26,241 nucleotides of DNA, from IMG/VR virus record IMGVR_UViG_3300031977_001746, positions 1-26,241 of that record; one strand, 5' to 3'. Under the pieces are notes generated by a model. The model worked only from the letters and a program-made list of their open reading frames with translations. It made no database searches and was not told the DNA's origin. Below are positions 6,904 through 22,440 of this stretch, in pieces. The DNA is from a virus. A program made the translations under genes and the position numbers. Every line of letters begins with the position of its first letter. The stretch's first letter is position 1.

Positions 6904-6943
6904 CCTCACTATCATACTATACTAACTAAGGAGAACTACTACT
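6893..6943 (+). promoter_or_regulatory. possible promoter and G-depleted leader of the ssb gene
   Basis: TTTACA (6893-6898) and TATACT (6918-6923) are 19 bases apart; TACTAT at 6915-6920 gives a 16-base spacing. The 40 bases between the uvsY stop and the ssb ATG contain only three G residues, all in the Shine-Dalgarno AAGGAG at 6929-6934, so the leader should be unstructured. T4 gp32 represses its own translation by binding an unstructured leader; a similar autogenous site here is an inference. Confidence 0.4.
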
Positions 6944-7684
6944 ATGGCTATTGATCTAGACGCACTACGCAAAAAGCACGAACAACTGAACAACCCTGGG
7001 GGCGGCAGCAACTCCAACGCTGATTTCCTCAACAAGTTCTATCAAATTCCCGAAGGCACCAACGCCGTCCGTATCCTGCCTTGGCGGGATGACAGCAAGG
7101 AGTTCTACGCGGAGACTAAGATTCACCGTGTCCCTGGTCCTGATGGTAATGTCAGGAACATTCACTGCCGCAAGGTTCACGGGGAGAACTGCCCCATGTG
7201 TGACCTTTACTACGCTCTGTGGAAAACGGGGCGCAAGGAGGACGAGGATCTTGCTCGCCAGATCAAGCCCCGTGCTCGTTACTACATGAACATCATGGAT
7301 CGTGAGTCTGGTGACATCAAGATTCTATCCGTGGGTGTCATCCTGTTCAAGAAGATCATCGGTGCCATGCTCGATGAAGACTTCGGTGACATCACTGATG
7401 TTGAGTCTGGTCACGACTTCAAGATCGTGAAAGAAATGGAGGGACAATGGCCTAAGTACGATCAGTCTGCACCTCGGCCCAAGTCCTCGCCTCTAGGTTC
7501 GAAAGCTGAGGTTGCCGCTAGTATGGAAAGCCTCCATGAGATCCACGATCTCGTCAAGCTTGAGGACTACGAAGAGGTCAAGCAAGCAGCCCAAGCACTC
7601 GGCGTTGTTTCGGCTCCCCAAGGTAACACCAAACAATCCGAAGAAGTATCGGACGGTGATTACCTCTCAAAACTTCAAAGTTGA
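6944..7684 (+). CDS. 32: gp32-like single-stranded DNA-binding protein
   Basis: 246 residues. The zinc-binding core HCRKVHGENCPMC gives C75, H79, C83 and C86 (with H61 or H74 nearby), closely matching the CxxxH...CxxC cluster of T4 gp32. An OB-like region surrounds it (QIPEGTNAVRILPW near 34-47). The C-terminal third is acidic and ends DGDYLSKLQS, the kind of tail through which gp32 contacts polymerase, helicase loader and recombination proteins. It coats single strands at the fork and in recombination. It follows the uvsY-like gene and has a strong AAGGAG ribosome site. Codons look optimised (ATC, CTC and no obvious ATA), as expected for an abundant protein. Confidence 0.9.
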   Translation: MAIDLDALRKKHEQLNNPGGGSNSNADFLNKFYQIPEGTNAVRILPWRDDSKEFYAETKIHRVPGPDGNVRNIHCRKVHGENCPMCDLYYALWKTGRKEDEDLARQIKPRARYYMNIMDRESGDIKILSVGVILFKKIIGAMLDEDFGDITDVESGHDFKIVKEMEGQWPKYDQSAPRPKSSPLGSKAEVAASMESLHEIHDLVKLEDYEEVKQAAQALGVVSAPQGNTKQSEEVSDGDYLSKLQS

Positions 7685-7689
7685 TAATT

Positions 7690-8262
7690 ATGAGAAGTAT
7701 TCTTAATCTTGCTATCGTTGCATTCCTTGGTCTCGGTGTTGCCTCTTGTGCGGCTCTGGAATCTTTCTTCGGAGAGGGCGCAGTAGTCACCACCGCTGAC
7801 CAACTAGCAGAGGGCGAAGAAGCCCCTGTCATCCCTTGGCAACAGCTTCCTGACGAGCTTAAAGCTCAGATCCCTGAGGGCACCGAGGTAGTTATGGCTA
7901 CCAAGGACCAGCTTACGGAAGAGGCTGCATACATCCCCCTTGGAGGTGAGCTTGATGGTGATTCCATCGGCGGAATCATCGACGCAGGATTTGGAATCGC
8001 AAGCACCTTCCTTCCTGGCCTCGCCGCCTGGGAAGGTGTTGTGACCCTCTTCTCTCAGCGCAAGCGGAAGAATTATGCTAAAGCCATTAAGGCTGCTGTT
8101 CCATCTGATAAGAACATCGACCTTGCTGGCGCTGTTGCTGGTGTCGCTGCGGCTCTCGGTATGTCTCACACCTCTGAGGGATCTAAGGCCGCTGCTGATG
8201 ACGAGGACGCTGCTGCTGCTGCAACGGAAGCTGTAGCTGCAAAAGCCGCTGAAAAAGCCTGA
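7690..8262 (+). CDS. phage-encoded lipoprotein of unknown function
   Basis: 190 residues. A lipoprotein signal is clear: basic MR start, hydrophobic core, and lipobox VASC with the acylated cysteine at residue 20. A second hydrophobic, glycine-rich segment (IGGIIDAGFGIASTFLPG..., near residues 97-120) could insert in a membrane, followed by a basic QRKRK cluster. The C-terminal 40 residues are an Ala/Glu/Asp-rich low-complexity tail. The ATG at 7690 is chosen over an upstream TTG because it begins the signal peptide. It would sit in the inner or outer membrane facing the periplasm. Superinfection exclusion or lysis roles are possible, but nothing in the sequence decides. It is the last gene before the terminator. 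Confidence 0.8.
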   Translation: MRSILNLAIVAFLGLGVASCAALESFFGEGAVVTTADQLAEGEEAPVIPWQQLPDELKAQIPEGTEVVMATKDQLTEEAAYIPLGGELDGDSIGGIIDAGFGIASTFLPGLAAWEGVVTLFSQRKRKNYAKAIKAAVPSDKNIDLAGAVAGVAAALGMSHTSEGSKAAADDEDAAAAATEAVAAKAAEKA

Positions 8263-8287
8263 TCTCTTCCCTGACTCTGGCTATAAT
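8259..8287 (+). promoter_or_regulatory. promoter overlapping the terminator before the sugar island
   Basis: A perfect TATAAT lies at 8282-8287 with CTGATC (half match to TTGACA) exactly 17 bases upstream. It carries the GGCTATAATAG form shared with other sites in the window. Expected initiation is near 8294, inside the 5' arm of the terminator hairpin, so RNA made from here could not form that hairpin and would read into the first glycosyltransferase gene. Confidence 0.55.
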
Positions 8288-8288
8288 A

Positions 8289-8323
8289 GGAGGACATCCA
8301 TCGTGGGTGTCCTCCATTTTTTT
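8289..8323 (+). terminator. intrinsic terminator after the lipoprotein gene
   Basis: An 11-bp stem, 8289-8299 paired with 8305-8315 (one G-U pair), closes a 5-base loop and is followed after one A by seven T residues (8317-8323). This is a textbook intrinsic terminator for the upstream replication operon. The next ATG is only 4 bases past the T-run. Confidence 0.85.
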
Positions 8324-8326
8324 ATC

Positions 8327-9493
8327 ATGAAAGAGAAATTAAAAATCCTAGCAGTTCCAGCAAACGAGGGGGGCTGCGCTTACTATAGAATCATCTGCCC
8401 AATCAAAAAACTAGAGCAACTCTACGGAGATCATGTAGAAGTTCGGTGGAATAAAAACCCTTTAGGTGTTGATGAAAAGAATGGAGCTTGGCAGGAGAAT
8501 TGGGACTTTGCCGACATGAAGTGGGCTGATATTGTGTTCACCCAAAACCTATCAAACTTTGGAGGAAACTACACTGCCCGCATTGTTGGTAAGGCAAAAG
8601 AGTTTGGCAAGTTTGTTCATTATGACACTGATGATCTTTTGACCAACATTTACGAAGGTCATCGTCTGTATCATGTGTACAAGGAGAAGGGCCTAGAGGA
8701 GATTACCAAGTTCATCTACAATAACTCAGATCTAGTGACGGTAACGCAACGCAAATTTGCTCAAAGAGTTGCGCCTTACTGTAATCCAAACAATACACTA
8801 GCTATTGTTAAAAACAGTATTGATTATAATCTACCTTGTTGGAACATGCCAAAAGTTCCCAAGCCCAAGAAGAAGTATACTCGTTTTGGCTGGGTAGGAG
8901 GTATCCACCATGAGCAGGATCTCAAATACTTTTCTGGAGTTCCTCACTTTGTAAACCAGCGCGTTGGTCGAGAGAATTGCAGATGGGACTTTTACGGCCA
9001 CCCACCTCCAGGGACGCCTGAGGATGATTGGCAGTTAGATGTTTGGAGAAAGTACAGAGAAATCATTCTGCGAGGATTCAAAGGACAAGCGAATTGGAGA
9101 ATCCACTACGCCCAGCAAGCAGACAGGTACGGACAGTTCTACACCGACATGGATGTAGCCCTTGCTCCTCTTGAGGTGAACGAATTCAATGATAGCAAGT
9201 CTGAGATCAAAGTTGCTGAGTGCGGTCGCTATAAGATTCCTCTTGTAGCCACAGACTGCGGAGCTTATGATGAGTGGATTGAAAATGGAGAAACGGGATT
9301 CCTAATTGATGCCAAGAAACCTATTTCTGAGTGGACAAAGATTCTTACCATGTGTGCCAAGAGGCCCGACATGGTGAAGCGCATGGGTGAGAACCTCCAC
9401 CAGAAAACGGAGGAAGCTTTTAATATGAATAAGGTAGTGGGGGCACGCCTCGATCTGTACAAGGAGCTTTTAGTTGCAAGTCAAGCTAGTTAG
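8327..9493 (+). CDS. glycosyltransferase, GT-B fold, GT4-like
   Basis: 388 residues. The second half has the GT4 pattern: WVGGIHH at about 204-210, followed by a long donor-binding domain with KSEIKVAECGRYKIPLVAT and a GETGFLID turn, which together hold the nucleotide-sugar. The N-terminal half is a Rossmann-like acceptor domain. It should transfer a sugar from a nucleotide donor to an acceptor in the cytoplasm. The ATG at 8327 is preferred over an upstream in-frame GTG at 8303 that lies inside the terminator loop region. No clear ribosome site precedes it, which is odd. It opens the sugar island and overlaps the next gene by 20 bases. The sugar and acceptor are unknown. Confidence 0.85.
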   Translation: MKEKLKILAVPANEGGCAYYRIICPIKKLEQLYGDHVEVRWNKNPLGVDEKNGAWQENWDFADMKWADIVFTQNLSNFGGNYTARIVGKAKEFGKFVHYDTDDLLTNIYEGHRLYHVYKEKGLEEITKFIYNNSDLVTVTQRKFAQRVAPYCNPNNTLAIVKNSIDYNLPCWNMPKVPKPKKKYTRFGWVGGIHHEQDLKYFSGVPHFVNQRVGRENCRWDFYGHPPPGTPEDDWQLDVWRKYREIILRGFKGQANWRIHYAQQADRYGQFYTDMDVALAPLEVNEFNDSKSEIKVAECGRYKIPLVATDCGAYDEWIENGETGFLIDAKKPISEWTKILTMCAKRPDMVKRMGENLHQKTEEAFNMNKVVGARLDLYKELLVASQAS

Positions 9494-10235
9494 TGGGTGG
9501 TCAAATCCTGGCGGCAGCACTCTGCACCATATCGGTCTAACTAATTTGTTAAACGATAATGGGATCGACTGCACCTTCTACGGACCTCATGAGTGGCATA
9601 GGGATAAGTGCAAATCTGGGCATATCAAGGACTGTACGCTGACTGTCCATGATACGCTCATCAGCCACTTCATTCAAGTGCCAACCACAAATGTAAGGAA
9701 ACATATTCTGAGTTGTCATGAGACTAATCTGTTTCCGCTCCAACAGATTCCCACGGCGGGATACGATGTGATTCAATATGTAAGTAATTTTCAAAGAGGG
9801 TGGCATGGGATAGATCATCCATACAAGATTATCCCACCACGGGTAGAGAAGATCGACTGGAAATTTACTCCATCACAATGCGCTGGTGTAATCGGTAGCA
9901 TTGATGAACACAAGCAAACCCACAAAGCTATTCAGCAAGCATTTGATGACGGGTTTGATCGTGTACTTCTATATGGTCAGATTACTGATCTTCCATACTT
10001 TGAAAAGTACATTCAACCACTTATGGGTCGTGTTGAAGTACGCAACCATGTGGATGATAAGGAGGCCATGTACGGCTCTGTAGAGGCTGTCTACCACGCT
10101 TCGAAGCGAGAGACCTATGGACTCGTAGAGGCTGAGTGCAAGGCCGCTGGAGTGCCTTACAGGGGCGTGGAGAACAACCCTGAGATCCTGACTGACGAGG
10201 AGATCCTAGAGAGATGGAAGACGGTATTACAGTAA
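9474..10235 (+). CDS. glycosyltransferase, short GT-B/GT4-like, TTG start
   Basis: 253 residues. The C-terminal part has the GT4 donor-site pattern (HASKRETYGLVEAECKAAG, a relaxed E-x7-E motif) and an earlier VIGSIDEHKQ segment like the linker strand of GT-B enzymes. It begins with KLVSGWSNPGGSTLH, typical of the first beta strand and glycine loop. The start is a TTG: AAGGAG at 9461-9466 sits 7 bases before it, and no better ATG is near. It is short for the family, which usually exceeds 300 residues, so part of the acceptor domain is reduced. It overlaps both neighbours. Confidence 0.75.
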   Translation: MQVKLVSGWSNPGGSTLHHIGLTNLLNDNGIDCTFYGPHEWHRDKCKSGHIKDCTLTVHDTLISHFIQVPTTNVRKHILSCHETNLFPLQQIPTAGYDVIQYVSNFQRGWHGIDHPYKIIPPRVEKIDWKFTPSQCAGVIGSIDEHKQTHKAIQQAFDDGFDRVLLYGQITDLPYFEKYIQPLMGRVEVRNHVDDKEAMYGSVEAVYHASKRETYGLVEAECKAAGVPYRGVENNPEILTDEEILERWKTVLQ

Positions 10236-10957
10236 TCTTAAACTGCTACAAGCGACCTGAATATTTACAAGAGCAGGTTCGAGCCCTACGATCCCAAACC
10301 GTAAAACCTAAGTACATCTGGCTTTGGATGAACGCTTGCCCTGAGAACAAGAAGTTTAATCCATATTCTTTTGGTCTGGATAAGGTATTCAAGTCGGATA
10401 CAAACTGTAAGTATCATGGGCGTTTTGCTGTAGGACTTCTAGCCCAGACAGAGTATGTGGCTTTCTTTGACGATGACACTATCCCAGGGGATATGTGGTT
10501 AGAGAACTGCATGAACACCATGAAGGAAACTCCTGGCATTCTTGGTGGGGCAGGGTGCATCCTTCAGAGTAGAGCTTATGTTCAGCACCAACGCATGGGC
10601 TGGCCTGTGAAGAATCCTGTGACAATGGAGGTAGATCTGGTTGGGCACGCATGGTTTATGAAGCGCGAGCATCTTAACTACATGTGGTACGAGACCCCAT
10701 TTACCTTTGAGAATGGAGAGGATATCCAACTATCGTATCTTGCAAAGAAGCATGGAAATGTTAGAACCTATTGTCCACCACACCCAGCGGATAATCCTAG
10801 GATGCATAGCTCACTCAAACCAGAGGAGTACGGTAACGATCAGAAGGCATCTTCTAACGGCTCACTAAAATCTATACCACAATTCTACGCAGAACGAGAC
10901 GCATGTATCTCTCATAGTATAGACAACGGCTGGAACACACTACTTCAAATACCATGA
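10214..10957 (+). CDS. glycosyltransferase, GT-A fold, GT2-like
   Basis: 247 residues. The opening GITVILNCYKRPEYL is the GT-A first strand, and D86-D87-D88 in VAFFDDDTIPG is the metal-binding DxD-type motif. Later, GHAWFMKREHL and the ENGEDIQLSY segment resemble the acceptor and catalytic-base region of GT2/GT64-like enzymes. It would use a metal ion and a nucleotide sugar to extend a glycan. It begins 22 bases before the end of the previous gene and shares an ATGA with the epimerase gene, so translation is coupled. The donor sugar cannot be predicted. Confidence 0.8.
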   Translation: MEDGITVILNCYKRPEYLQEQVRALRSQTVKPKYIWLWMNACPENKKFNPYSFGLDKVFKSDTNCKYHGRFAVGLLAQTEYVAFFDDDTIPGDMWLENCMNTMKETPGILGGAGCILQSRAYVQHQRMGWPVKNPVTMEVDLVGHAWFMKREHLNYMWYETPFTFENGEDIQLSYLAKKHGNVRTYCPPHPADNPRMHSSLKPEEYGNDQKASSNGSLKSIPQFYAERDACISHSIDNGWNTLLQIP

Positions 10958-11943
10958 TTGGATTATTTTACGGAACAAGACCTGAGTATATCAAGCTACT
11001 TCCTGTTGCTAGGGCTTTGAATGATAAAAATATTGAATACGAGCTTGTTCAAATTCAGCAACATACAGACCTAATTAGAAACTGTGAATATGATCGTCGT
11101 ATCAGAGTTTTTACGAGCCCTGTAGGTAATGTAATCTGTAGACTCAATGATATCTTTCATGCTGCATTAGGTATAAACTTAAAATGTTATAAGTATGTCA
11201 TGGTACAGGGAGACACTAGCACCGCAGCAGCAGTTGCTTTGAGTGCCTTCAATCAAGGTGTCCCAGTTATGCATGTTGAGGCTGGACTAAGAACCTACGA
11301 CAAGAATAATCCGTATCCTGAGGAGACAAATAGGAGAATCATTAGCGCCCTTGCTTCTGTGCATTATTGTCCAACCGACTTTGATGTGTCCAATCTGCTT
11401 GATGAGGGATTCAGAGATGACGAGATTGTACTGACAGGCAATACTGTCATCGACAATCTTAGAGGTCGTGAGGCTACAAAGGGGAACACTATCATTGTGA
11501 CAATGCACAGAAGGGAGAACCAGCCACACCTACGGGAATGGTTCTCACAAATAGAAGCATTAGCTTGTGAGCATCCTGATTATGAGTTCATCTTCCCCAT
11601 GCACCCCAGCCCACAGGTTCAAAAGCATCGGGATATCTTTAATCAGGTTCAGGTAATTGATCCTGTGGATCACGAAACTATGCTGGATATGATTGCCTCC
11701 TGTCACTGTGTAATCACTGACAGCGGAGGAATGCAGGAAGAATGCTCATTCTTTAGGAAGCGGTGCTTTGTTTGTAGAGCAGTAACAGAGCGCCCCTGTG
11801 CGGGACAGGTGCTTTGTAAGACGCCAGGGATCCTGCACAAAAAGTTCAACAGTGATGTTAAGATCGAGTTTGATCGACCAACACCTTTCGGAGACGGATA
11901 TGCAGGAGAAAAAATTGCAGAAGACATTCAGCGGAGAGTTTGA
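10954..11943 (+). CDS. wecB: UDP-N-acetylglucosamine 2-epimerase family enzyme (WecB/NeuC type)
   Basis: 329 residues, slightly shorter than WecB (about 375). Family motifs are all present: GTRPEYIKLLPV at 7-18, VQGDTSTAAAV near 84-93, HVEAGLRT at 107-114, PYPEETNRR at 120-128, HRREN at 185-189 and TDSGGMQEE at 255-263, followed by TERPCAG. These hold the UDP moiety and catalytic acids. The reaction is UDP-GlcNAc to UDP-ManNAc, or a hydrolysing variant of it as in sialic-acid-like pathways. It is the only clear sugar-nucleotide epimerase in the island and points to an N-acetylated amino sugar as building block (inference). The start is coupled by ATGA to the preceding gene. Confidence 0.9.
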   Translation: MIGLFYGTRPEYIKLLPVARALNDKNIEYELVQIQQHTDLIRNCEYDRRIRVFTSPVGNVICRLNDIFHAALGINLKCYKYVMVQGDTSTAAAVALSAFNQGVPVMHVEAGLRTYDKNNPYPEETNRRIISALASVHYCPTDFDVSNLLDEGFRDDEIVLTGNTVIDNLRGREATKGNTIIVTMHRRENQPHLREWFSQIEALACEHPDYEFIFPMHPSPQVQKHRDIFNQVQVIDPVDHETMLDMIASCHCVITDSGGMQEECSFFRKRCFVCRAVTERPCAGQVLCKTPGILHKKFNSDVKIEFDRPTPFGDGYAGEKIAEDIQRRV

Positions 11944-12718
11944 TAGACTCTTACAAAAACTAAAGGATCAAGAGAACTTCGCGTTCCTTAGATTCTCTGA
12001 TGGAGAGCTTTTCATGCTTAGGGGGGAAAAGGTGATACTAGCAGAAAATCATTATGTAACGGGAGAAACAGCAGGAGCGGGCTTCTATCCTAAAGAAGAG
12101 CAAAAGGATGTTGATCCTGAACGAGAGCCATTCTACAGAGATCGTCTTATAGCTGCCCTCCAACACCGACAACCAAACTATTTCAAGGGACTGACGGGTG
12201 TGGTTGACGAGGATATTGCTGGCGAGGGAGCGTTCGAATATCAACTAGAGATGCATGGCGAAGGCGATGATGAGCATCTAACTTTTGCAAATGTTCTAAT
12301 CAACGCTAACTATAAAAGATTTATCGAAGAGATGATGCCTCTCGTAAAGCAGAAACCAATTGTCATGATTTGCAACGAGGCGGCGACACTAACAAACTTT
12401 GCGTTCCCTGTGGTCAAAGACTTCAGGGTAGGATCTAACTGTATCATCAATGACTATTCTCTGATTGAAGATATCAAAGAATGGATACGCGATAACGATA
12501 TTCAAGATCACATCTTCCTATGCTCTGCATCTACGCTGAGTAATTATATCATCCATGAGTGCTTCAAGGAGTTCCCTAATAACACCTTCATTGACATTGG
12601 AAGCACTCTGAATCCTTGGATGGAACTAGAGGGTTGGATGCATTCCAGGGCATACTTGCAGCATTGGATCTTAGGACAGCATAATAAGTATGGTGTTATG
12701 GAGGATGTATGGATCTAG
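11900..12718 (+). CDS. putative glycosyltransferase with GT-D-type RFxDGE motif
   Basis: 272 residues from the ATG at 11900, which has CGGAG six bases before it; a longer upstream frame would overlap the epimerase gene by about 145 bases and is unlikely. Residues 29-37 read FLRFSDGEL, the RF(G/S)DGE signature of the GT-D fold (DUF1792) transferases known from streptococcal glycan assembly. The rest alternates strand and helix, with an IGSTLNPW segment near the end. If the fold is right, it adds a sugar from UDP-sugar donors. The motif match is short, so a different Rossmann-like enzyme is possible. It overlaps both neighbours. Confidence 0.6.
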   Translation: MQEKKLQKTFSGEFDRLLQKLKDQENFAFLRFSDGELFMLRGEKVILAENHYVTGETAGAGFYPKEEQKDVDPEREPFYRDRLIAALQHRQPNYFKGLTGVVDEDIAGEGAFEYQLEMHGEGDDEHLTFANVLINANYKRFIEEMMPLVKQKPIVMICNEAATLTNFAFPVVKDFRVGSNCIINDYSLIEDIKEWIRDNDIQDHIFLCSASTLSNYIIHECFKEFPNNTFIDIGSTLNPWMELEGWMHSRAYLQHWILGQHNKYGVMEDVWI

Positions 12719-13707
12719 TTCCTGCAAAGGAGGAGCACTGGTCATTTATCCGTGATTTACGAATGCATCCCGATAATATATCTGGATTTTTGACTGAGGC
12801 CAATATTACCGATGAGCAGCAAAAACAATACATGCAGAAGTATGGAGATTGTTACTTTGTGGCTCTATCATATGGCAAGCCCGTGGGTTATGTTGGAGTG
12901 ATAGATGGGGACATTAGAATCTGCACAGACCCCAGCAATAAAAGATCTGGTGTTGGCAAATTCATGCTTAGAAGAATATTCGAAATGTTTCCTAAATCTA
13001 AGGGACGCATACTGAAGGATAATTTAGCAAGCCAACGACTATTCTCAAAATGTAAAGTTCCGTTTGAAATAATTATGAAGATAGGTATTCTAACAGATAC
13101 ACGACAGAGTTGGATTTTACCATATATTGAAGATCTAAAAAAGGGATTAGCTAACCATGAAGTGTATCATGTATTCAGCAGCGACGAAGTTGAGGAGGGT
13201 GATGTTCTATTCGCTTTGTCTTGCGAGAAGATATTAAGAGACAGTATCTTGAAAAAGAACGATCATAATATTGTAGTTCACCCCAGCGCGTTACCCAAGG
13301 GCAGAGGCTGGTCCCCCTTGGCTTGGCAGATTCTGGAAGGCCAAAATCGAATCCCCGTTAGCTTATTTGAAGCACAAGCCTCTGTAGATTCAGGAGCAGT
13401 ATACTTAGTGGATTACTTAGAATTAGATGGGACTGAGCTAAATGATGAAATAAAAGATCTCCAGGGAAAGAAAACAGTTGAGATGTGTCTTTCTTTCATT
13501 AAAGATTATGATACGATTGAAGGTAAAGAACAGGAGGGAGAGCCTACCTTCTATACCAAGAGAACAGCGGAATCGAGTCAGCTTGATGTTTCTAAATCAA
13601 TAAAGGATCAGTTCAATCTTTTAAGAGTTGTGGACAATAAACGATACCCAGCACACTTCTTTATGAAGGGGCATAAGTACACTATAACAATAGAAAGAGA
13701 ACAGTAG
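12709..13707 (+). CDS. fusion of GNAT acetyltransferase and sugar formyltransferase domains
   Basis: 332 residues. Residues 1-122 form a GNAT domain with the acetyl-CoA loop R79-S-G-V-G-K84 and an N105-x4-R110 segment. From M123 the chain restarts as MKIGILTD, the first strand of a formyltransferase, with H191-P-S-A-L-P, KGRGWSPL and V-D227-SG as catalytic region. The usual N-x-H asparagine is replaced by Val, as I recall for some sugar-linked formyltransferases. The enzyme would acetylate and formylate amino sugars, using acetyl-CoA and N10-formyl-tetrahydrofolate. GGAGG precedes the start by four bases. M123 follows TAATT, so separate translation of the second domain is possible. Confidence 0.8.
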   Translation: MDLVPAKEEHWSFIRDLRMHPDNISGFLTEANITDEQQKQYMQKYGDCYFVALSYGKPVGYVGVIDGDIRICTDPSNKRSGVGKFMLRRIFEMFPKSKGRILKDNLASQRLFSKCKVPFEIIMKIGILTDTRQSWILPYIEDLKKGLANHEVYHVFSSDEVEEGDVLFALSCEKILRDSILKKNDHNIVVHPSALPKGRGWSPLAWQILEGQNRIPVSLFEAQASVDSGAVYLVDYLELDGTELNDEIKDLQGKKTVEMCLSFIKDYDTIEGKEQEGEPTFYTKRTAESSQLDVSKSIKDQFNLLRVVDNKRYPAHFFMKGHKYTITIEREQ

Positions 13708-13708
13708 T

Positions 13709-14335
13709 ATGACACATAAAAGTATAAAGCACAATCCATATAAGATTGTTCAAATGTTTGAAGAGGAAGTCGCAGAGTACACAGGGGCTCCTTTTGCCGT
13801 AGCCGTAGACAGTTGCACTAACGCTTTGTTCTTGTGCTGCAAATATTATAATGCAAAGGAAGTTACTATACCAAAGCGAACTTACCTCTCTGTCCCCATG
13901 TCAATTATTCATTCAGGCGCAGAGGTTATTTTTGAGGATCTCGATTGGACAGGAACATATCAACTAAAGCCTTACCCAATCTATGATGCTGCTAAGAGAT
14001 TTACTTCTGACATGTATATTTCAGGAACAGCGATGTGTGTGTCTTTTCACATTAAAAAACTCCTTGCTATAGGCAAGGGTGGAATGATCTTGACAGATAA
14101 TTATGACATGGTGCAGTGGCTTAAGAAAGCTCGATATGAGGGACGGGGTGAAGTAAACTATAAGAACGACAGCATTGAATCTTTGGGCTGGAACATGTAT
14201 ATGACCCCACAACAAGCTGCACACGGCTTGGCTCTCATGCAAAACTATCCTGAGAATGTTCCTGATCTTGACGAGAACAATGGCTACAGAGACCTAACGG
14301 AGTTTCCCGTATTTAAAGACTGCAAAGTAGTATGA
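13709..14335 (+). CDS. compact DegT/DnrJ/EryC1/StrS-type sugar aminotransferase
   Basis: 208 residues against 360-390 usual for this PLP enzyme family. It keeps the core: VDSCTNAL near 33-40 (phosphate site), TIPKRTYLSVPMSIIHSGA (53-71), YDAAKRF with D93 contacting the pyridine, SFHIKKLLAIGKGG (112-125) with Schiff-base lysine K116 or K117, and GWNMYMTPQQAAHGLALMQ (160-178). The C-terminal small domain of about 150 residues is missing and the chain ends shortly after, at CKVV. The stop is shared (ATGA) with the next gene, so this looks like a settled short form, not a fresh truncation. It would aminate a keto-sugar nucleotide if active. Confidence 0.8.
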   Translation: MTHKSIKHNPYKIVQMFEEEVAEYTGAPFAVAVDSCTNALFLCCKYYNAKEVTIPKRTYLSVPMSIIHSGAEVIFEDLDWTGTYQLKPYPIYDAAKRFTSDMYISGTAMCVSFHIKKLLAIGKGGMILTDNYDMVQWLKKARYEGRGEVNYKNDSIESLGWNMYMTPQQAAHGLALMQNYPENVPDLDENNGYRDLTEFPVFKDCKVV

Positions 14336-15471
14336 AAAATATAATTCATATAGGTGGTATGGATACTTATGATCAAACTCATGAGTCTGGAAATACTATT
14401 CACTTTGATATTATCAAAAAATTACCATTTAATTCTACCCATGTTCTAGGACTGCAAAGATTAAGAAATGATCCTCAAAGTGTATTCATTCCTCTTGGTG
14501 GGCCTCAGGACGGTCTAGAAAATTATATTTCGCCCGACGCGGTTATCTTATATGATACACTTCTAAAACCGCAAACTATACTAGACATATACGAAAAACA
14601 TAAGTGTCCAATTATCTGGAGCGCCATGGGGCATGATTTTTTAACTGGAGGCTGTGCATACCCAAACCAACATGGGTTGTCTTGCGAAAAGTTTAAGACT
14701 GATTGTTCAAATTGCCCACAACAATTTAGTAATAGTGTCGAAACACTAAAGGATAAAATTAGATTAAATGAAATCGAATTGTATGGTGTGGCTGTGAGCA
14801 CATATACTTTATCTTTGATGAACAGCAGCCCCATATTTAAAGATAAGAAATGCATTTTGATTCCCTTTCCGTATGACGAAATACCTGTTAGCGACCTTAG
14901 TAAAGAGGAAGCTAGAAATATGTTCTCAATTCCGCAGGATAAGTTCGTAATCTTTTGGGGCACTTGCCATCCAGATACACCTAGAAAGGGGAAGGTTTAT
15001 GCTGAAGAGGCGTTGAACAACTTATACAATAAAGTTTCTAATCCAGATGATTTTGTTCTGGTGACAGCGGGGCTTGAGCCAACCGTTTCATTTGAGAACA
15101 CCCAACCTTTTGAAGTAATTCATGCTGGTTATATGGATACCAGAGAAAGGCTTTCTCATCTGTACAGGGCCGCTGATGTAGGTTTACAAACTACCGTTGA
15201 AGATGCGGGACCGATGATGGTTACAGAATGTCTCATGAATAACACCAGAGTTGTGTCCTTTGACAATTGTGTCTCACCAGATGTGATAGAAGAAGGCAAA
15301 ACTGGCTTTGTTGTTCCTACTTTTGATACTGAAGCTTTGAGCGATGCACTAATCAAAGCGTATGATACAAAGGACTTTCTTGTAGACTGCACCAAAAAAT
15401 GTCTTGAGTTTAATAGTAAAGAATCATTCAAGCAGAAGTGGTTTGATTTTTTATCTGAAGTAATCAAATGA
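14332..15471 (+). CDS. glycosyltransferase, GT4-like, with Cys-rich N-terminal motif
   Basis: 379 residues. The N-terminal half has the GHDFLTGGCAY...C...C..CP pattern with C108, C118, C125 and C128, known in a set of lipopolysaccharide/colanic-acid type GT4 enzymes and probably binding zinc or forming a structural knot. The C-terminal half has FVIFWGTC, AADVGLQTTVEDAGPMMVTECLM (the D-x7-E donor motif) and EEGKTGFVV. It transfers a sugar from a nucleotide donor. Codon use is strikingly A/T-rich, with several ATA and TTA codons in the first 100 codons. The start is coupled by ATGA to the aminotransferase stop. Substrate unknown. Confidence 0.85.
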   Translation: MKNIIHIGGMDTYDQTHESGNTIHFDIIKKLPFNSTHVLGLQRLRNDPQSVFIPLGGPQDGLENYISPDAVILYDTLLKPQTILDIYEKHKCPIIWSAMGHDFLTGGCAYPNQHGLSCEKFKTDCSNCPQQFSNSVETLKDKIRLNEIELYGVAVSTYTLSLMNSSPIFKDKKCILIPFPYDEIPVSDLSKEEARNMFSIPQDKFVIFWGTCHPDTPRKGKVYAEEALNNLYNKVSNPDDFVLVTAGLEPTVSFENTQPFEVIHAGYMDTRERLSHLYRAADVGLQTTVEDAGPMMVTECLMNNTRVVSFDNCVSPDVIEEGKTGFVVPTFDTEALSDALIKAYDTKDFLVDCTKKCLEFNSKESFKQKWFDFLSEVIK

Positions 15472-16166
15472 AGTTTATCTTTTACTCACACAAAGATTAC
15501 TCTGATATCTGGCCCATAATGTTTGGTCAGGCAGAGAAGTACCTAGGACAGTATCAAAAGGTTTTGTTTACCAACGAGGGGGACGCTCCTGACGATTGGG
15601 ATGTTCTGTATTATGATGACTCGCTCCCCTATCAGCAGAGAGTGCTGTCCTGCCTCGCTAAACTAAAGGATGAGGTGGTAGTATTTCACCATGAGGATAT
15701 GTTTCTCCGCGCCGAGCCAGACCACGAAACTCTTAAGTATTTTGCGAACATAGTTGAGGCGGATCAAGTATCTTTTATCAAGCTGCTACGGGGAGGTTAT
15801 GTTGATACCCAGGTAGAGTCTGAGTATGCTGGACTTCTTATTAGTCCACAAGATATGGTGTTTACTATTCAGCCAACCATCTGCAAAAAGCACAATCTAG
15901 AAACTATGTATCGCGAGACTCCAGGGGAATCTATCTGGGAGTTTGAGTCTAATACTCATATCACCACTACAAAAGAAAACTTTACAGGTTGTATGGCATT
16001 TGAATCAGGCGATAAAAAGCGTGGAATGTATCACTATGACTCCAAAGCTTATCCTTACATCGCTACAGGAGTCGTGAAAGGCAAGTGGTATACCTCTGAC
16101 TACCCAGAAATGCTGACCATACTAAACGACTATGATATTGACAAGAGCCTCCGAGGAGAAGTATGA
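15468..16166 (+). CDS. putative GT-A-like glycosyltransferase
   Basis: 232 residues. The sequence has a first strand (MKFIFYSH), a segment with paired aspartates (WDVLYYDDSLPYQQRVL) and an acidic motif HHEDMFL at 74-80 after a hydrophobic strand (EVVVF), which resembles the metal-binding site of GT-A enzymes. I recall similar proteins near glycan genes of marine phages but cannot name a family. It shares ATGA junctions with genes on both sides, so it is translated as part of the sugar operon. A role as transferase is inferred from motif and setting; a different sugar-modifying function is possible. Confidence 0.6.
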   Translation: MKFIFYSHKDYSDIWPIMFGQAEKYLGQYQKVLFTNEGDAPDDWDVLYYDDSLPYQQRVLSCLAKLKDEVVVFHHEDMFLRAEPDHETLKYFANIVEADQVSFIKLLRGGYVDTQVESEYAGLLISPQDMVFTIQPTICKKHNLETMYRETPGESIWEFESNTHITTTKENFTGCMAFESGDKKRGMYHYDSKAYPYIATGVVKGKWYTSDYPEMLTILNDYDIDKSLRGEV

Positions 16167-16768
16167 ACTTTACGAAAGCAGTATTATTTGATTTAGACGG
16201 AGTGCTTGTGGATGCCTGTGATTGGCACTATGAAGCATTGAATAGAGCCTTGAGAGAGGTAGCTAATTATGAAATCTCTAGACATGATCATGAGACGAGA
16301 TTTAATGGATTGCCTACTAAAGTTAAACTTAAAACTCTAGCAGCCCAGGGTCTTATTAAAGAGCATCAAATGCAGGAGGTTTCTGATTTGAAGCAAGAAC
16401 TAACCATTCAGGTAATTGAGGATCTCTGTAAAGTAGATGATAGTAAAGTTCAGCTTATGCGAAAGCTAACACAACAAGGTTTTAAGATTGCTTGTGTCAC
16501 AAATTGTATTCGTAAAACTGCAATAATGATGCTTCATAAAAGTGGAGTTTATGAGTATATGGACTGCGTTGTTTCTAACGAGGATGTTGATCACACTAAA
16601 CCTCATCCAGAGGGCTACATTAAAGCCTTGGTTATGCTGGGTTGTGCGCCAAGCAATGCTATCATAGTAGAGGACTCACCAAAGGGTATTCAGGCTGCTG
16701 AGATGACTGGTGCCAAGGTGGTTGTGGTAGCAAATGCTACTGAAGTAAACGAGGACATGAAACTATGA
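16163..16768 (+). CDS. HAD-superfamily sugar phosphatase or phosphomutase
   Basis: 201 residues with all four HAD motifs: DLDGVLVD with nucleophile D10 and D12, CVTN near 115-118 (motif II Thr), K in HTKPHPEGY (motif III), and VEDSPKGIQAA (motif IV) near 169-179. The helical cap after motif I is of the beta-phosphoglucomutase type (C1 cap). It should remove or move a phosphate on a sugar phosphate in the cytoplasm. Next to it lies a nucleotidyltransferase, the usual partnership in routes that make an NDP-sugar from a bis-phosphorylated or isomerised precursor, as in heptose activation (analogy). Overlap with both neighbours is four bases. Confidence 0.85.
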   Translation: MNFTKAVLFDLDGVLVDACDWHYEALNRALREVANYEISRHDHETRFNGLPTKVKLKTLAAQGLIKEHQMQEVSDLKQELTIQVIEDLCKVDDSKVQLMRKLTQQGFKIACVTNCIRKTAIMMLHKSGVYEYMDCVVSNEDVDHTKPHPEGYIKALVMLGCAPSNAIIVEDSPKGIQAAEMTGAKVVVVANATEVNEDMKL

Positions 16769-17472
16769 ACATTCTAATTCCCATGGCGGGCGCTGGCTCA
16801 CGCTTTGAACAGGCTGGTTACACTTTCCCTAAGCCTCTGATCGAGGTTCATGGAAAGCCTATGATTCAAAAAGTGGTAGAAAATCTTAATATTGATGGGC
16901 GACACATCTTTATTGTTCAGAAGAAACACTACGATAAGTATGCACTAAACTATCTTTTACCTTTAATTGCCCCAGGGTGCGAGATTGTTCAGGTTGATGG
17001 GGTGACTGAAGGTGCTGCGTGTACCACACTACTTGCAAAGCAATTTATTGATAATGACTCTCCTCTGATCACAGCCAACTCGGATCAATATATTGAGTTT
17101 GAGGACGATTGGCAGAGACATCTTAACACCGACTGGTCTGACGGGAGTATCCTAACCTTCGAAGCAACACACCCTAAGTGGAGTTTCGCTAGAGTGGATG
17201 AAGGTGTTGTAAAAGAGGTCGCTGAAAAGAGACCAATTAGTAACACAGCAACCGTAGGAGTCTACCACTGGAAGAAGGGTTCCGATTATGTTAAGTACGC
17301 CGAGCAGATGATTGAGAAGGACATTCGTGTCAATAACGAGTTCTATGTTTGCCCAGTGTTCAATGAAGCCATCGCTGACGGCAAGAAGATCAGAACCATT
17401 CCAGTAAAGCGTATGTGGGGTCTGGGCACTCCAGAAGATCTTAGAACCTATCTATCGGACTACAAGGGATGA
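16765..17472 (+). CDS. sugar-1-phosphate nucleotidyltransferase
   Basis: 235 residues with the NTP_transferase signature at the N-terminus: MAGAGSRFEQAGYTFPKPL, whose GxGSRF loop binds the NTP phosphates and whose PKPL lysine contacts the sugar phosphate. Metal-binding acidic residues are likely in ITANSDQYIEF near 98-108. A W-G-L-G-TPEDL end (near 219-226) matches RmlA/LicC-like enzymes. It couples a sugar 1-phosphate (or similar alcohol phosphate) to a nucleotide to give an activated donor for the island transferases. Which nucleotide and sugar are used cannot be read. It begins at ATGA after the HAD gene and ends at ATGA before the GDPD-like gene. Confidence 0.85.
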   Translation: MNILIPMAGAGSRFEQAGYTFPKPLIEVHGKPMIQKVVENLNIDGRHIFIVQKKHYDKYALNYLLPLIAPGCEIVQVDGVTEGAACTTLLAKQFIDNDSPLITANSDQYIEFEDDWQRHLNTDWSDGSILTFEATHPKWSFARVDEGVVKEVAEKRPISNTATVGVYHWKKGSDYVKYAEQMIEKDIRVNNEFYVCPVFNEAIADGKKIRTIPVKRMWGLGTPEDLRTYLSDYKG

Positions 17473-17837
17473 TTCAAACCGTAGCGCATAGAGGCAACAC
17501 AAAGGGTAAGACTGAGCATGAGAATCGCCCAGTCTACCTGACGAATGCCGCCAAGGATCATTTTGTAGAAGTAGATGTTTGGTATGTCAAGGACAAGATC
17601 TTCCTAGGCCATGATGAGCCTACCTACGAGGTCTCGATTGATTTTCTAAAGAACGAGAAGTTCTTCTGTCACGCAAAGAACATCGAAGCACTTCACAGGA
17701 TGCTAGAAGAGCCAGACATCCACTGCTTCTGGCATGAGAATGATTTGGTAACGCTGACATCAAAAGGCTATGTATGGAAATATCCTGAAGTATATTTTCA
17801 AGGAAAGCTTTGGGGAGTCTGCTCTGATTGGGTATAA
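17469..17837 (+). CDS. GDPD-like (glycerophosphodiester phosphodiesterase) short protein
   Basis: 122 residues. It shows the first half of a GDPD active site: H7-R8-G9, E18-N19, E34-x-D36 and H48-D49 in FLGHDEP. Full GDPD enzymes are about 250 residues TIM barrels, so this is a half-length form. In capsule and lipopolysaccharide clusters, proteins of this kind occur beside HAD and nucleotidyltransferase genes, as here, where glycerol- or other phosphodiester decoration of the sugar is a plausible use (inference). The frame ends in GTATAA, so the stop codon is part of the -10 box of the next gene. It could be inactive or work as a dimer. Confidence 0.7.
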   Translation: MIQTVAHRGNTKGKTEHENRPVYLTNAAKDHFVEVDVWYVKDKIFLGHDEPTYEVSIDFLKNEKFFCHAKNIEALHRMLEEPDIHCFWHENDLVTLTSKGYVWKYPEVYFQGKLWGVCSDWV

Positions 17838-17838
17838 T
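17810..17838 (+). promoter_or_regulatory. promoter of the mazG operon, predicted leaderless
   Basis: TATAAT lies at 17833-17838 with TTGGGG exactly 17 bases upstream (17810-17815). It has the GGGTATAATAG form. The ATG of mazG is 5 bases after the box, so transcription should begin at or next to the start codon, giving an mRNA without a ribosome site. The box also contains the stop codon of the previous gene. Confidence 0.55.
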
Positions 17839-17843
17839 AGATC

Positions 17844-18182
17844 ATGAGTTTCGATGACTATCAAGAGGAAGCAGTTAGCTTCGCATTCTATCCAAAAAGC
17901 ACTGAATGGGAACTTCCCTTCTACCCAGCCCTCGGCCTAGCGGGCGAAGCAGGTGAGGTAGTTGAGAAGATCAAGAAGCTGATGCGAGATACTGACGCGA
18001 AAATTTTGACAGAGGATCAAAAGCGTGAGATTGCTAAAGAGCTAGGTGATGTGCTTTGGTATGTTGCTAACCTTGCTGCGGATCTAGAGTACGGCATGGA
18101 GGAGATTGCTGAGATGAATCTGAACAAGCTGCGATCTAGACAAGAGCGTGATGCTCTGAAGGGGTCTGGAGATAATCGCTGA
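17844..18182 (+). CDS. mazG: MazG-family nucleotide pyrophosphohydrolase
   Basis: 112 residues, one MazG domain. The metal-binding signature is E35-x2-E38 in LAGEAGEVVEKIKK and E66-x2-D69 in KELGDVLWYVANLA. These enzymes hydrolyse (d)NTPs to monophosphates, and phage forms are thought to clean nucleotide pools or affect ppGpp-linked stress. The ATG at 17844 sits 5 bases after a TATAAT, so it is probably translated from a leaderless message. The next gene overlaps its stop (TGATG). It starts a nucleotide-related mini-operon of four genes, not related in content to the sugar island. Confidence 0.88.
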   Translation: MSFDDYQEEAVSFAFYPKSTEWELPFYPALGLAGEAGEVVEKIKKLMRDTDAKILTEDQKREIAKELGDVLWYVANLAADLEYGMEEIAEMNLNKLRSRQERDALKGSGDNR

Positions 18183-18391: not shown

Positions 18392-18729
18392 ACGAGCCCC
18401 CTCCGATGAGGGCAGCACGAAAGGCGTCTGAGAAATCACAACACAGATTCCAACTCGGTGCTGCCATAGCAAAGAAGAACAAGGTTCTAGTTACCGCTTA
18501 TAACACATGCAAGACACATCCACGATTTGGTTCTGGCGACTACAATACGCTACATGCGGAAAGCAACGCGATCTACAAAGCGGTGCGGCGGGGGATCAAC
18601 ATCGAGGGAGCGACGATCTATGTGTATCGCAAGAACAACAACCTTGCGAAACCGTGTCCTTGCTGCATGGGGCTAATTCATGAGCACGGCATCAAACAAG
18701 TGGTTTACAGCCGAGGACTACCTGAGTGA
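18388..18729 (+). CDS. cytidine/dCMP deaminase-like protein
   Basis: 113 residues. The zinc deaminase core is intact: H56-A-E58 in TLHAESNAI and P89-C90-P-C92-C93 in KPCPCCMGLIHEHG, with IYVYRKNNN between. It should hydrolyse a cytosine-type amino group, most likely of a nucleotide, feeding dUMP for dTTP, or of another amino substrate. It is far shorter than T4 dCMP deaminase (193), so the allosteric region is missing and the true substrate is open. It begins at an ATGA overlap and its end is overlapped by 50 bases by the next gene, in the mazG operon. Confidence 0.8.
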   Translation: MNEPPPMRAARKASEKSQHRFQLGAAIAKKNKVLVTAYNTCKTHPRFGSGDYNTLHAESNAIYKAVRRGINIEGATIYVYRKNNNLAKPCPCCMGLIHEHGIKQVVYSRGLPE

Positions 18730-19270
18730 TTACACCTGTGAGTTTCTAGCCGAGACTGCGAGGTCTTCTAAAACTCAGAACACTTCAAACAAGTTCTTCG
18801 ATGACTCGGTTGTTTATCCACACATGATGAACAATGGACGGGCGATTAATTATGCCACTGAGGTCAAACGCAAGCTTGAGCAAGATATCAAAGTTGCGTA
18901 TGGTCTAGAGGGCGAGGTTTATGCAGATACCATCGCTCTGTGCAAGTGGCCTGAGGGGAAGAGTATGACCCCACACAGGGATAACCAAGACGAGTTTGAT
19001 TATTCCACACCCTGGAGAGAGTACGCTGCAATCATTTATCTGAATGATGATTATGATGGTGGCGAACTTACTTTGGATGAGTTAGGGATTTCGATCAAAC
19101 CAAAGAAGGGACAGTGTATCCTTCTTGAAGCTGATATGCTACACGGTGTTTCTGAGGTCACACGCGGGACACGATACACCTTGATCAGTTGGTTTAACTC
19201 TGAGAAGCACAGAGGCGAGCGATTGGATGCTGTTCTGGCTGAGTCGCTTGAGAGATTTAACAAGCACTGA
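18680..19270 (+). CDS. 2-oxoglutarate/Fe(II)-dependent oxygenase (P4Hc-like)
   Basis: 196 residues. The iron-binding facial triad is H99-R-D101 in TPHRDN and H155 in MLHGVSEV, with R165 in RGTRYTLISWF for 2-oxoglutarate. Strand patterns around YAAIIYLNDDYDGGEL are typical of the prolyl 4-hydroxylase-like double-stranded beta helix. It would oxidise a substrate (protein side chain, base or sugar) using oxygen and 2-oxoglutarate in the cytoplasm. The ATG at 18680 lies within the end of the deaminase gene. The two oxygenases in this window do not share much beyond these motifs. The substrate is unknown; DNA or protein hydroxylation are candidates. Confidence 0.85.
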   Translation: MSTASNKWFTAEDYLSDYTCEFLAETARSSKTQNTSNKFFDDSVVYPHMMNNGRAINYATEVKRKLEQDIKVAYGLEGEVYADTIALCKWPEGKSMTPHRDNQDEFDYSTPWREYAAIIYLNDDYDGGELTLDELGISIKPKKGQCILLEADMLHGVSEVTRGTRYTLISWFNSEKHRGERLDAVLAESLERFNKH

Positions 19271-21665: not shown

Positions 21666-21863
21666 ATGGGACGCACATTTCGAAGAGACGATGATCATAG
21701 ATCCTATGGTGTAAATCGTTCGGCAAGACCTAAGAAAAATAAACCTCGTAAACAGAAGAAGAACTTCTCTGACAAGAGCTATAATGTAGCAGAAACCTAC
21801 GAAGACCACTACGGCGATCAAGGGTTCGAGAAGTTTGACTATGCAAAGCGTAAAGGTAAATAA
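21666..21863 (+). CDS. unknown small basic protein
   Basis: 65 residues beginning MGRTFRRDDD; the ATG at 21666 follows the previous stop by one base, and an earlier in-frame ATG at 21624 would lie in the preceding gene. It is very basic (KKNKPRKQKKN in the middle) with several Tyr and acidic residues in the second half. No domain is recognised; nucleic-acid binding is plausible from composition. Its end overlaps the oxygenase gene by 23 bases. Confidence 0.6.
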   Translation: MGRTFRRDDDHRSYGVNRSARPKKNKPRKQKKNFSDKSYNVAETYEDHYGDQGFEKFDYAKRKGK

Positions 21864-22440
21864 TCCAGAGCCAACATACATCACCGCTAAGGATGTTCTC
21901 ACGCCAGAGTGTGCGGAGACATTGATGAAGTTGGTAGACGAACGGGGGAAGCGATCTGAGTGGTCTTATAATCCTTGGTGTCTTGAATTTCAGATCGCTA
22001 ACCCTTTTACTAAGGTGAGGACGGAGAATGATGAAAACATCATCTCTGTTCTTCCTGAACTTTTTTCAGTTGGCGAAAGCTTTTTGAGGCACATCAACTG
22101 GAGCTTCCAGAATACTGGATGTGATATCGCTACAGGACATCACGGTTTCTGGATTCTACGATACGACAAGGACGGTTACTTTGACCTACATTGTGATTGG
22201 GACTCTGGCCCAAACGGAATTCGTCCACCTATCGTAGCCACAGCAGCTATCCTGTTAAACGATAAGTTTGAAGGAGGGGAGACAGTTCTTCTCGACTCCA
22301 CAGGAACAGAAGCTATAATAGAACAACAAGAGCCGTTATCTGCGCTCGTATGGGACGGGTTCACACAGCACAAAGTTGCTACGGTGACATCGGGCAGCAG
22401 ATACGCTCTTGTCATCCACTACACAGGAACAATCAAATGA
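21841..22440 (+). CDS. second 2-oxoglutarate/Fe(II)-dependent oxygenase
   Basis: 199 residues from the ATG at 21841 (an in-frame TTG lies two codons upstream). The facial triad is H117-C-D119 in FDLHCDWD and H177 in TQHKVATV, with R187 in GSRYALVIHY to bind 2-oxoglutarate. FEGGETVLL and the conserved strands fit the P4Hc fold. It probably hydroxylates a protein, base or sugar substrate that is not identifiable here. Compared with the oxygenase at 18680 the triad spacing is 58 versus 54 residues between D and distal H, so the two are related but diverged. Its stop overlaps the next ATG (ATGA). Confidence 0.82.
   Translation: MQSVKVNNPEPTYITAKDVLTPECAETLMKLVDERGKRSEWSYNPWCLEFQIANPFTKVRTENDENIISVLPELFSVGESFLRHINWSFQNTGCDIATGHHGFWILRYDKDGYFDLHCDWDSGPNGIRPPIVATAAILLNDKFEGGETVLLDSTGTEAIIEQQEPLSALVWDGFTQHKVATVTSGSRYALVIHYTGTIK

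Follow-up and report, generated by a model that had tools for sequence, protein, structure and literature searches.

The closest described counterparts of the locus analysed here, a twelve-gene sugar operon of an uncultured marine T4-type phage, are the glycan islands of pelagimyophages and cyanomyoviruses. The operon lies in the 26,241-base linear IMG/VR record IMGVR_UViG_3300031977_001746 (hereafter the window, meaning that whole stretch). A host recognition cluster of pelagimyophages, hypervariable and rich in glycan genes, lies between VrlC and gp14 (PMC7029224). Like the window locus, it is an island rich in glycosyltransferases (GTs) in marine phages of the T4 superfamily; however, it belongs to the structural region, with tail fibres, and is described as diverging gradually (PMC7029224), whereas the window locus sits outside the structural module, between gp32 and mazG, has no recognised tail-fibre gene and is replaced as a whole at exact borders. 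Cyanomyoviruses carry lipopolysaccharide (LPS) clusters near hli03 or phoH for which no function was settled, filler DNA being among the options (PMC3037559). These clusters (P-SSM2, S-SSM7 and S-SM2; PMC3037559, PMC2984593) and the islands of S-CAM9, B23 and Bellamy share with the window genes of the nucleotidyltransferase, HAD, GDPD-like and transferase types, but they are found near tRNAs, hli03 or phoH, and the accessible portion of the sources mentions no pair of constant GTs flanked by gp32 and mazG. The window operon is of this known kind; what is new is its position, its constant anchor transferases and the exact exchange of a whole cassette.

Bacterial O-antigen and capsule loci, in which serotypes are exchanged, have constant flanks, a swapped central cassette of low G+C and a mixture of precursor enzymes and transferases. 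The window locus shares this layout, but neither Wzx nor a polytopic protein resembling Wzy nor a PF02397 initiating transferase was detected in it. Glycosylated mycobacteriophages carry a small number of transferases and are not known to have a large precursor cassette. Their virion glycosylation is reported to involve phage-encoded transferases, as here, and glycans on capsid and tail-tube subunits (Freeman et al., 2023, via PMC12619734). Chloroviruses offer a precedent: their capsid N-glycan is made in the cytoplasm and combines a core common to every member with a virus-specific part, and the core transferase is conserved (PMC7826918). The likeness would lie in virus-encoded cytoplasmic glycosylation with a conserved core; chloroviruses differ in being eukaryotic viruses with a proven acceptor, whereas that of the window locus is a proposed one.

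A whole cassette exchanged beside constant genes

Twelve consecutive plus-strand open reading frames (ORFs), all intact, fill positions 8327-17837 between a lipoprotein gene and mazG, and nearly all junctions from the first gene (GT1) to the last (GDPD) are ATGA or longer overlaps. A preliminary description of the window had recognised twelve consecutive glycan genes here, a view that both the ORFs and the domain calls uphold. No close cultured relative was present in the collections searched; a nucleotide search with the island against phage isolates gave no match, and the window has no near match in a set of 50,697 phage records. Comparison was made with 80 gp32 relatives taken from IMG/VR, on each of which all window genes were mapped, and with distant loci retrieved with DegT as the query; all contigs compared are genome fragments.

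Between close relatives, the ten genes from GT3 to GDPD (10218..17829, plus strand; borders by blastn) are replaced wholesale at one exact spot. The relative G004, with gp32 94%, gp41 97% and UvsX 97% identical to those of the window, aligns to it at 82-85% up to 10217, not at all over 10218-17829, and at 82-89% from 17830, and has 14 unrelated ORFs in place of the window cassette. Alignments with two other relatives (L018 and L012) end at 10219, while that with L008 restarts at 17832. The left border coincides with the ATG of the first cassette gene and a GAGGAG stretch resembling a ribosome-binding site, both within the last codons of GT2, and the right border with a TATAATA motif 4 nt upstream of the mazG ATG (mazG, 17844..18182, plus strand; PF03819, 1.3e-11; phrog_229, 3e-36). 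The relatives therefore do not bear out the clean single insertion between ssb and mazG that had been expected, as the exchange spans only 10218-17829. The two 150-bp stretches around the borders share no direct repeat of at least 10 bp, which leaves site-specific insertion unsupported; homologous recombination in the conserved flanks is presumably the simplest means of exchange.

The 24 closed cassettes recovered measure 3.2-11.8 kb and hold 5-15 ORFs. They sit between gp32-lipoprotein and mazG (or uvsX and its neighbours where mazG was undetected), none of the 24 sites is empty, and G+C is below that of the cassette's own flanks in nearly all. In the window, G+C is 45.9% in the left flank, 45.2% in GT1 and GT2, 41.8% from GT3 to GDPD and 48.0% in the right flank. 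The A/T-richness noted in the preliminary description is thus real, but begins at GT3 rather than GT1, and the acquisition proposed on its basis applies to ten genes replaced as a whole cassette; GT1 and GT2 did not arrive with them.

Sharing of cassettes does not follow the phage backbone. The window has no cassette gene in common with relatives at 94-95% gp32 identity, yet seven of its ten recur in L162 and L164, whose gp32 is 36-37% and whose DegT is 87-88% identical; likewise, all 11 cassette genes are common to G014 and L173 at 44% gp32 identity. Cassette sharing correlates with gp32 identity at rho -0.25, a value whose sign is biased because the distant loci were fetched with DegT, and only the non-sharing of close pairs and the single far pairs are used here.

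GT1 and GT2, in contrast to the exchanged block, are fixed genes of the lineage and lie outside it. GT1 (8327..9493, plus strand) is a GT4-type glycosyltransferase (PF13692, 1.4e-8; phrog_7162, 5.9e-31) that comes after gp32-lipoprotein in almost every relative of sufficient length to show it, with 67-100% identity, and its divergence tracks gp32 identity (Spearman rho 0.86). GT2 (9474..10235, plus strand), a short GT4-like protein with a weak PF13692 match (0.0013), follows GT1 in most relatives.

The cassettes scanned consist largely of glycan genes. That of G004 encodes GT11, a full-length DegT, a GDP-mannose dehydratase together with an epimerase, and a DHQ-synthase-like protein accompanied by a class III aminotransferase and a cytidylyltransferase. 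Those of L060 and L008 contain transferases of families 2, 25 and 10, a methyltransferase, a hexapeptide acyltransferase and epimerases, and that of L018 a UDP-galactopyranose mutase with Fringe-like and family 2 transferases. In one phage cassette (L264:12485-16376), genes for a cytidylyltransferase, a cupin-like protein, an SDR, a DHQ-synthase-like protein and a class III aminotransferase are grouped, which may point to an unusual precursor, of cyclitol type or otherwise. Another (L080:3362-9068), with 28.8% G+C against 44.9% in its flanks and a radical SAM/SPASM protein among its products, looks recently acquired.

Predicted chemistry of the window cassette

The window cassette opens with GT3 (10214..10957, plus strand), a GT-A family 2 glycosyltransferase (PF00535, 4.9e-6) with profile matches to heparosan synthase B (1.1e-6) and KfiA (0.0018). 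The fourth gene of the operon, wecB (10954..11943, plus strand), encodes a non-hydrolysing UDP-GlcNAc 2-epimerase that scores 219.6 bits against TIGR00236, above the NCBIfam equivalog cut-off of 210.15 bits, and its motifs GDT, HVEAGLR, PEExNR and HRREN align to those of 5enz. Because this call is sound and the motifs are conserved, UDP-N-acetylmannosamine (UDP-ManNAc) can be taken as the firm predicted product.

Gene 5 (11900..12718, plus strand) is GT-D-like; its PF22882 match (2.3e-5) is below the Pfam cut-off and its profile matched nothing meaningful in the PDB, while R31..D34-G35-E36 is invariant across 24 homologues. Gene 9 (15468..16166, plus strand), with no Pfam match, is a probable GT-A glycosyltransferase on the basis of its structure model (predicted local distance difference test, pLDDT, 93.8), which matches GT-A and sugar nucleotidyltransferase folds. 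Between them, gene 8 (14332..15471, plus strand) is a further GT4-type glycosyltransferase (PF00534, 6e-12).

Gene 6 (12709..13707, plus strand) fuses a GNAT acetyltransferase (PF00583, 1e-4) to a formyltransferase-like domain (PF00551, 2.1e-8). In the latter, the catalytic Asn is replaced by Val (NxH to VVH) with the His and Asp kept, so that the Asn-His-Asp triad of sugar N-formyltransferases of the ArnA and VioF type is incomplete. Gene 7 (13709..14335, plus strand), here called mini-DegT, encodes a pyridoxal phosphate (PLP) aminotransferase of 208 amino acids (aa) that lacks the C-terminal domain. The Schiff-base Lys (K117), the PLP Asp (D93) and the phosphate Ser (S112) are invariant in 49 of 49 homologues. 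The AlphaFold2 model (pLDDT 92; predicted template modelling score 0.89) is matched by Foldseek to GDP-perosamine synthase, PseC and ArnB over approximately 215 columns. All but two members of its cluster measure 197-241 aa, against 359-445 aa for the PDB relatives, and the window protein falls well short of a complete two-domain DegT/DnrJ/EryC1/StrS chain (~370 aa). At the search depth used, mini-DegT was found in 197 viral stretches but in only 8 contigs of 84,980 genomes. The few contigs of metagenome-assembled genomes (MAGs) with the gene include L245, L247 and L249, and on L245 it is accompanied by an ABC transporter and a GtrB-like gene, which indicates that the family is not strictly viral; an exclusively viral distribution was accordingly rejected, as 8 MAG contigs carry the gene and at least L245 looks cellular.

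Across 91 mini-DegT loci, a lone GNAT of ~129 aa lies directly upstream in 45 and the GT-D gene two genes upstream in 37, with GT3 and WecB nearby in approximately 40. At other loci, sequence inspection places a hexapeptide-type acyltransferase at the GNAT position. A second module, also present in cyanophage islands, is formed by genes 10 to 12. Gene 10 (16163..16768, plus strand) is a beta-PGM-like HAD phosphatase or phosphosugar mutase (PF13419, 1.4e-32; TIGR02009, 113 bits, below cut-off). Gene 11 (16765..17472, plus strand) is a sugar-1-phosphate nucleotidyltransferase (PF00483, 8.2e-9), 67.8% identical to its S-CAM9 counterpart; in S-CAM9 and B23, the HAD and nucleotidyltransferase matches fall within one annotated gene. 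Gene 12 (17469..17837, plus strand) is a short GDPD-like phosphodiesterase, as had been proposed: the signature H7-R8, E34-x-D36, H48 is invariant in 21 homologues, and the solved GDPD 7e0v gives a weak profile match (E 0.0026) covering approximately 50 residues. At 122 aa, it is shorter than a full-length GDPD TIM barrel (~250 aa).

Taken together, the predicted products of the window cassette comprise WecB for the formation of UDP-ManNAc, an aminotransferase paired with an N-acyltransferase, an activation module of HAD, nucleotidyltransferase and GDPD, and additional transferases. The earlier proposal that the island makes and attaches a sugar holds to the extent of an operon for biosynthesis plus transfer, in which the amino-sugar steps are plausible from the encoded families. 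A formylated amino sugar is uncertain, given the VVH motif, the lone GNAT that is the usual neighbour of this DegT and the lack of a keto-sugar enzyme in the window. For the cassette genes that could be measured, the ratio of nonsynonymous to synonymous substitution rates (dN/dS) at close range was 0.06 for GT3, 0.08 for the HAD gene and 0.10 for GDPD, indicating purifying selection; synonymous divergence was saturated for most others.

Regulatory elements and phage background

The operon is preceded by a promoter-like motif, CTATAATA (8281..8288, plus strand), which abuts the 5′ side of an intrinsic terminator (8289..8325, plus strand) with a 12-bp stem (8289-8315) and a T7 tract ending 3 nt before the GT1 ATG (8327). 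A terminator-like hairpin occurs upstream of GT1 in 54 of 60 distinct relatives, with diverging stem sequences, and in none of 60 shuffled controls. TATAATA is present in 32 of 62 GT1 upstream regions, mostly abutting the 5′ side of the hairpin, compared with 1.9 in shuffles; both controls were mononucleotide shuffles. CTATNATA recurs upstream of gp32, mazG and uvsX, and the promoter-like motif of mazG itself, TATAATA (17833..17839, plus strand), stands at the right cassette border (17830-17832). Transcripts of gp32-lipoprotein may stop at the terminator (8289-8325), and transcription of the glycan operon may start at CTATAATA beside its 5′ side. A transcript starting just past this motif would lack the 5′ arm of the hairpin and so should not terminate there. 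Occurrences of CTATNATA or TATAATA in the window at 6909, 8281, 17833, 19319 and 20343 lie shortly upstream of gp32, GT1, mazG, uvsX and a DUF932 gene, respectively. On the related contig G001, 12 of 23 CTATNATA occurrences are non-coding, though only 2.4% of that contig is non-coding.

Between gp32 and the operon lies a conserved phage lipoprotein gene (7681..8262, plus strand; start probably ATG 7690), which occupies this place in most of the lineage. Its product gave no family match; it has a signal peptide and a lipobox ending SC in 16 of 16 relatives read, a hydrophobic stretch and an acidic tail, and an envelope or exclusion role is possible.

The description of the phage as T4-like is supported by UvsX, UvsY, gp32, gp41 and gp46 in the window and by a Gp23-type major capsid protein (PF07068 above cut-off) in three related contigs (G001, G010 and G014), which lies outside the window region and is ~28% identical to cultured gp23 across most of its length. 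T4 itself has a family B DNA polymerase. The polymerase of the relative G014 departs from this, being of family A (PF00476, 1.1e-72). It is encoded in two ORFs (L259:14663-17854), one for a part that is uracil-glycosylase-like and exonuclease, the other for the family A polymerase part, separated by a further ORF, an unusual arrangement where the capsid is of T4 type. The window also holds two genes resembling 2-oxoglutarate (2OG)-Fe(II) oxygenases (18680-19270 and 21835-22440), neither of which has a counterpart in the otherwise collinear G004.

The probable glycan acceptor and what the exchange may mean

Our assessment, evenly balanced between acceptance and doubt, is that this phage operon for glycosylation is complete in itself and combines a base that stays fixed with a top that can be exchanged, and that its acceptor is likeliest a virion protein. 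GT1 and GT2, inherited with the phage backbone, would put the first sugars on an acceptor belonging to the phage lineage, and the block from the 3′ end of GT2 to the mazG promoter, replaced in one piece, would set the further sugars. As the enzymes all look soluble, assembly of the glycan would probably take place in the cytoplasm, straight on the acceptor. From the inheritance of GT1 with the backbone we infer a constant, phage-encoded acceptor, which favours a virion protein over the host envelope. The acceptor is thus probably a virion protein, with a host envelope glycan a close second and DNA unlikely, and the glycan likely serves shielding or host contact.

Several points weigh against a virion glycosylation operon. 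GT2 was not detected by tblastn in every relative, and the window cassette encodes no dehydratase or dehydrogenase as a source of keto-sugar for the aminotransferase, so the amino sugar would depend on host or other phage genes. Mini-DegT and the formyltransferase half may also be catalytically altered. Soluble transferases could act on host lipid-linked precursors, with the host then exporting the product, and the adjoining conserved lipoprotein hints at an envelope role.

These last points belong to modification of the host envelope, a tentative explanation that we lean against while considering it a substantial possibility. The transferases would work at the inner membrane face on host lipid-linked O-antigen or core precursors, and the altered surface, exported by the host, would block superinfection or change receptors, the lipoprotein next to the operon being part of the same programme. 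The gene types are those of LPS and capsule loci, the diversity of the cassettes resembles that of host O-antigens, and such a role has been proposed for P-SSM2 (PMC2984593) and pelagimyophages (PMC7029224). Yet none of the closed cassettes contains Wzx, a PF02397 transferase or a polytopic membrane protein, and GT1 goes with the phage backbone, although one would expect an acceptor supplied by the host to differ from host to host. The Wzx flippase (PF01943) was absent from all 40 related contigs and detected in 13 of 14 control genomes, in keeping with the earlier statement that no Wzx or membrane exporter is present; the PF02397 initiating phosphoglycosyltransferase was likewise found in 0 of 40, with the WecA type not searched for. 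By hydropathy, a crude measure that gave 9 segments for Wzx and 6 for Wzy in the E. coli rfb control, none of 219 cassette ORFs has three or more hydrophobic segments and 6 have one. Across the ORFs of these phages as a whole, polytopic membrane proteins are scarce (1 of 4026), so their absence from the cassettes is, taken alone, weak evidence.

Addition of sugars to modified phage bases, as a means of evading restriction, is improbable, and the proposal of phage DNA as an acceptor found no support. T4 provides a precedent, the operon is located among replication genes, and its promoter-motif class is common to gp32 and uvsX. Neither a thymidylate-synthase-type hydroxymethylase (PF00303) nor a C5 methyltransferase (PF00145) occurs in 28 lineage contigs, though, these being fragments, the absence is not decisive. 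The oxygenase at 18680-19270 touches the Tet_JBP model; the match is below cut-off and was found in 0 of 27 other contigs, and this identity was rejected. Finally, that the island is non-functional filler DNA that happens to consist of sugar genes, a question left open for cyanophage LPS clusters (PMC3037559), is very hard to reconcile with the low dN/dS, the intact overlapping ORFs, the conserved regulatory element and the lack of an empty site in any of 24 cassettes.

On the question of functional versus filler sugar islands, open in the cyanophage comparison (PMC3037559), the evidence here leans firmly towards function. A minimal family of PLP aminotransferases and a promoter-like motif of the lineage also emerge from the analysis. 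Transferases that stay constant suggest a single acceptor that does so too, and close phage pairs with wholly different cassettes are natural swap experiments. The swapping resembles the bacterial exchange of surface-sugar types, and suggests that this lineage carries an exchangeable sugar coat or sugar disguise. Such phages may have serotypes, a proposal that in our judgement falls just short of an even call: the virion acceptor and the GT1/GT2 sugars would stay constant, while the outer glycan would be switched by a one-step trade of cassettes, also across deeply diverged lineages, with mini-DegT among the shared parts.

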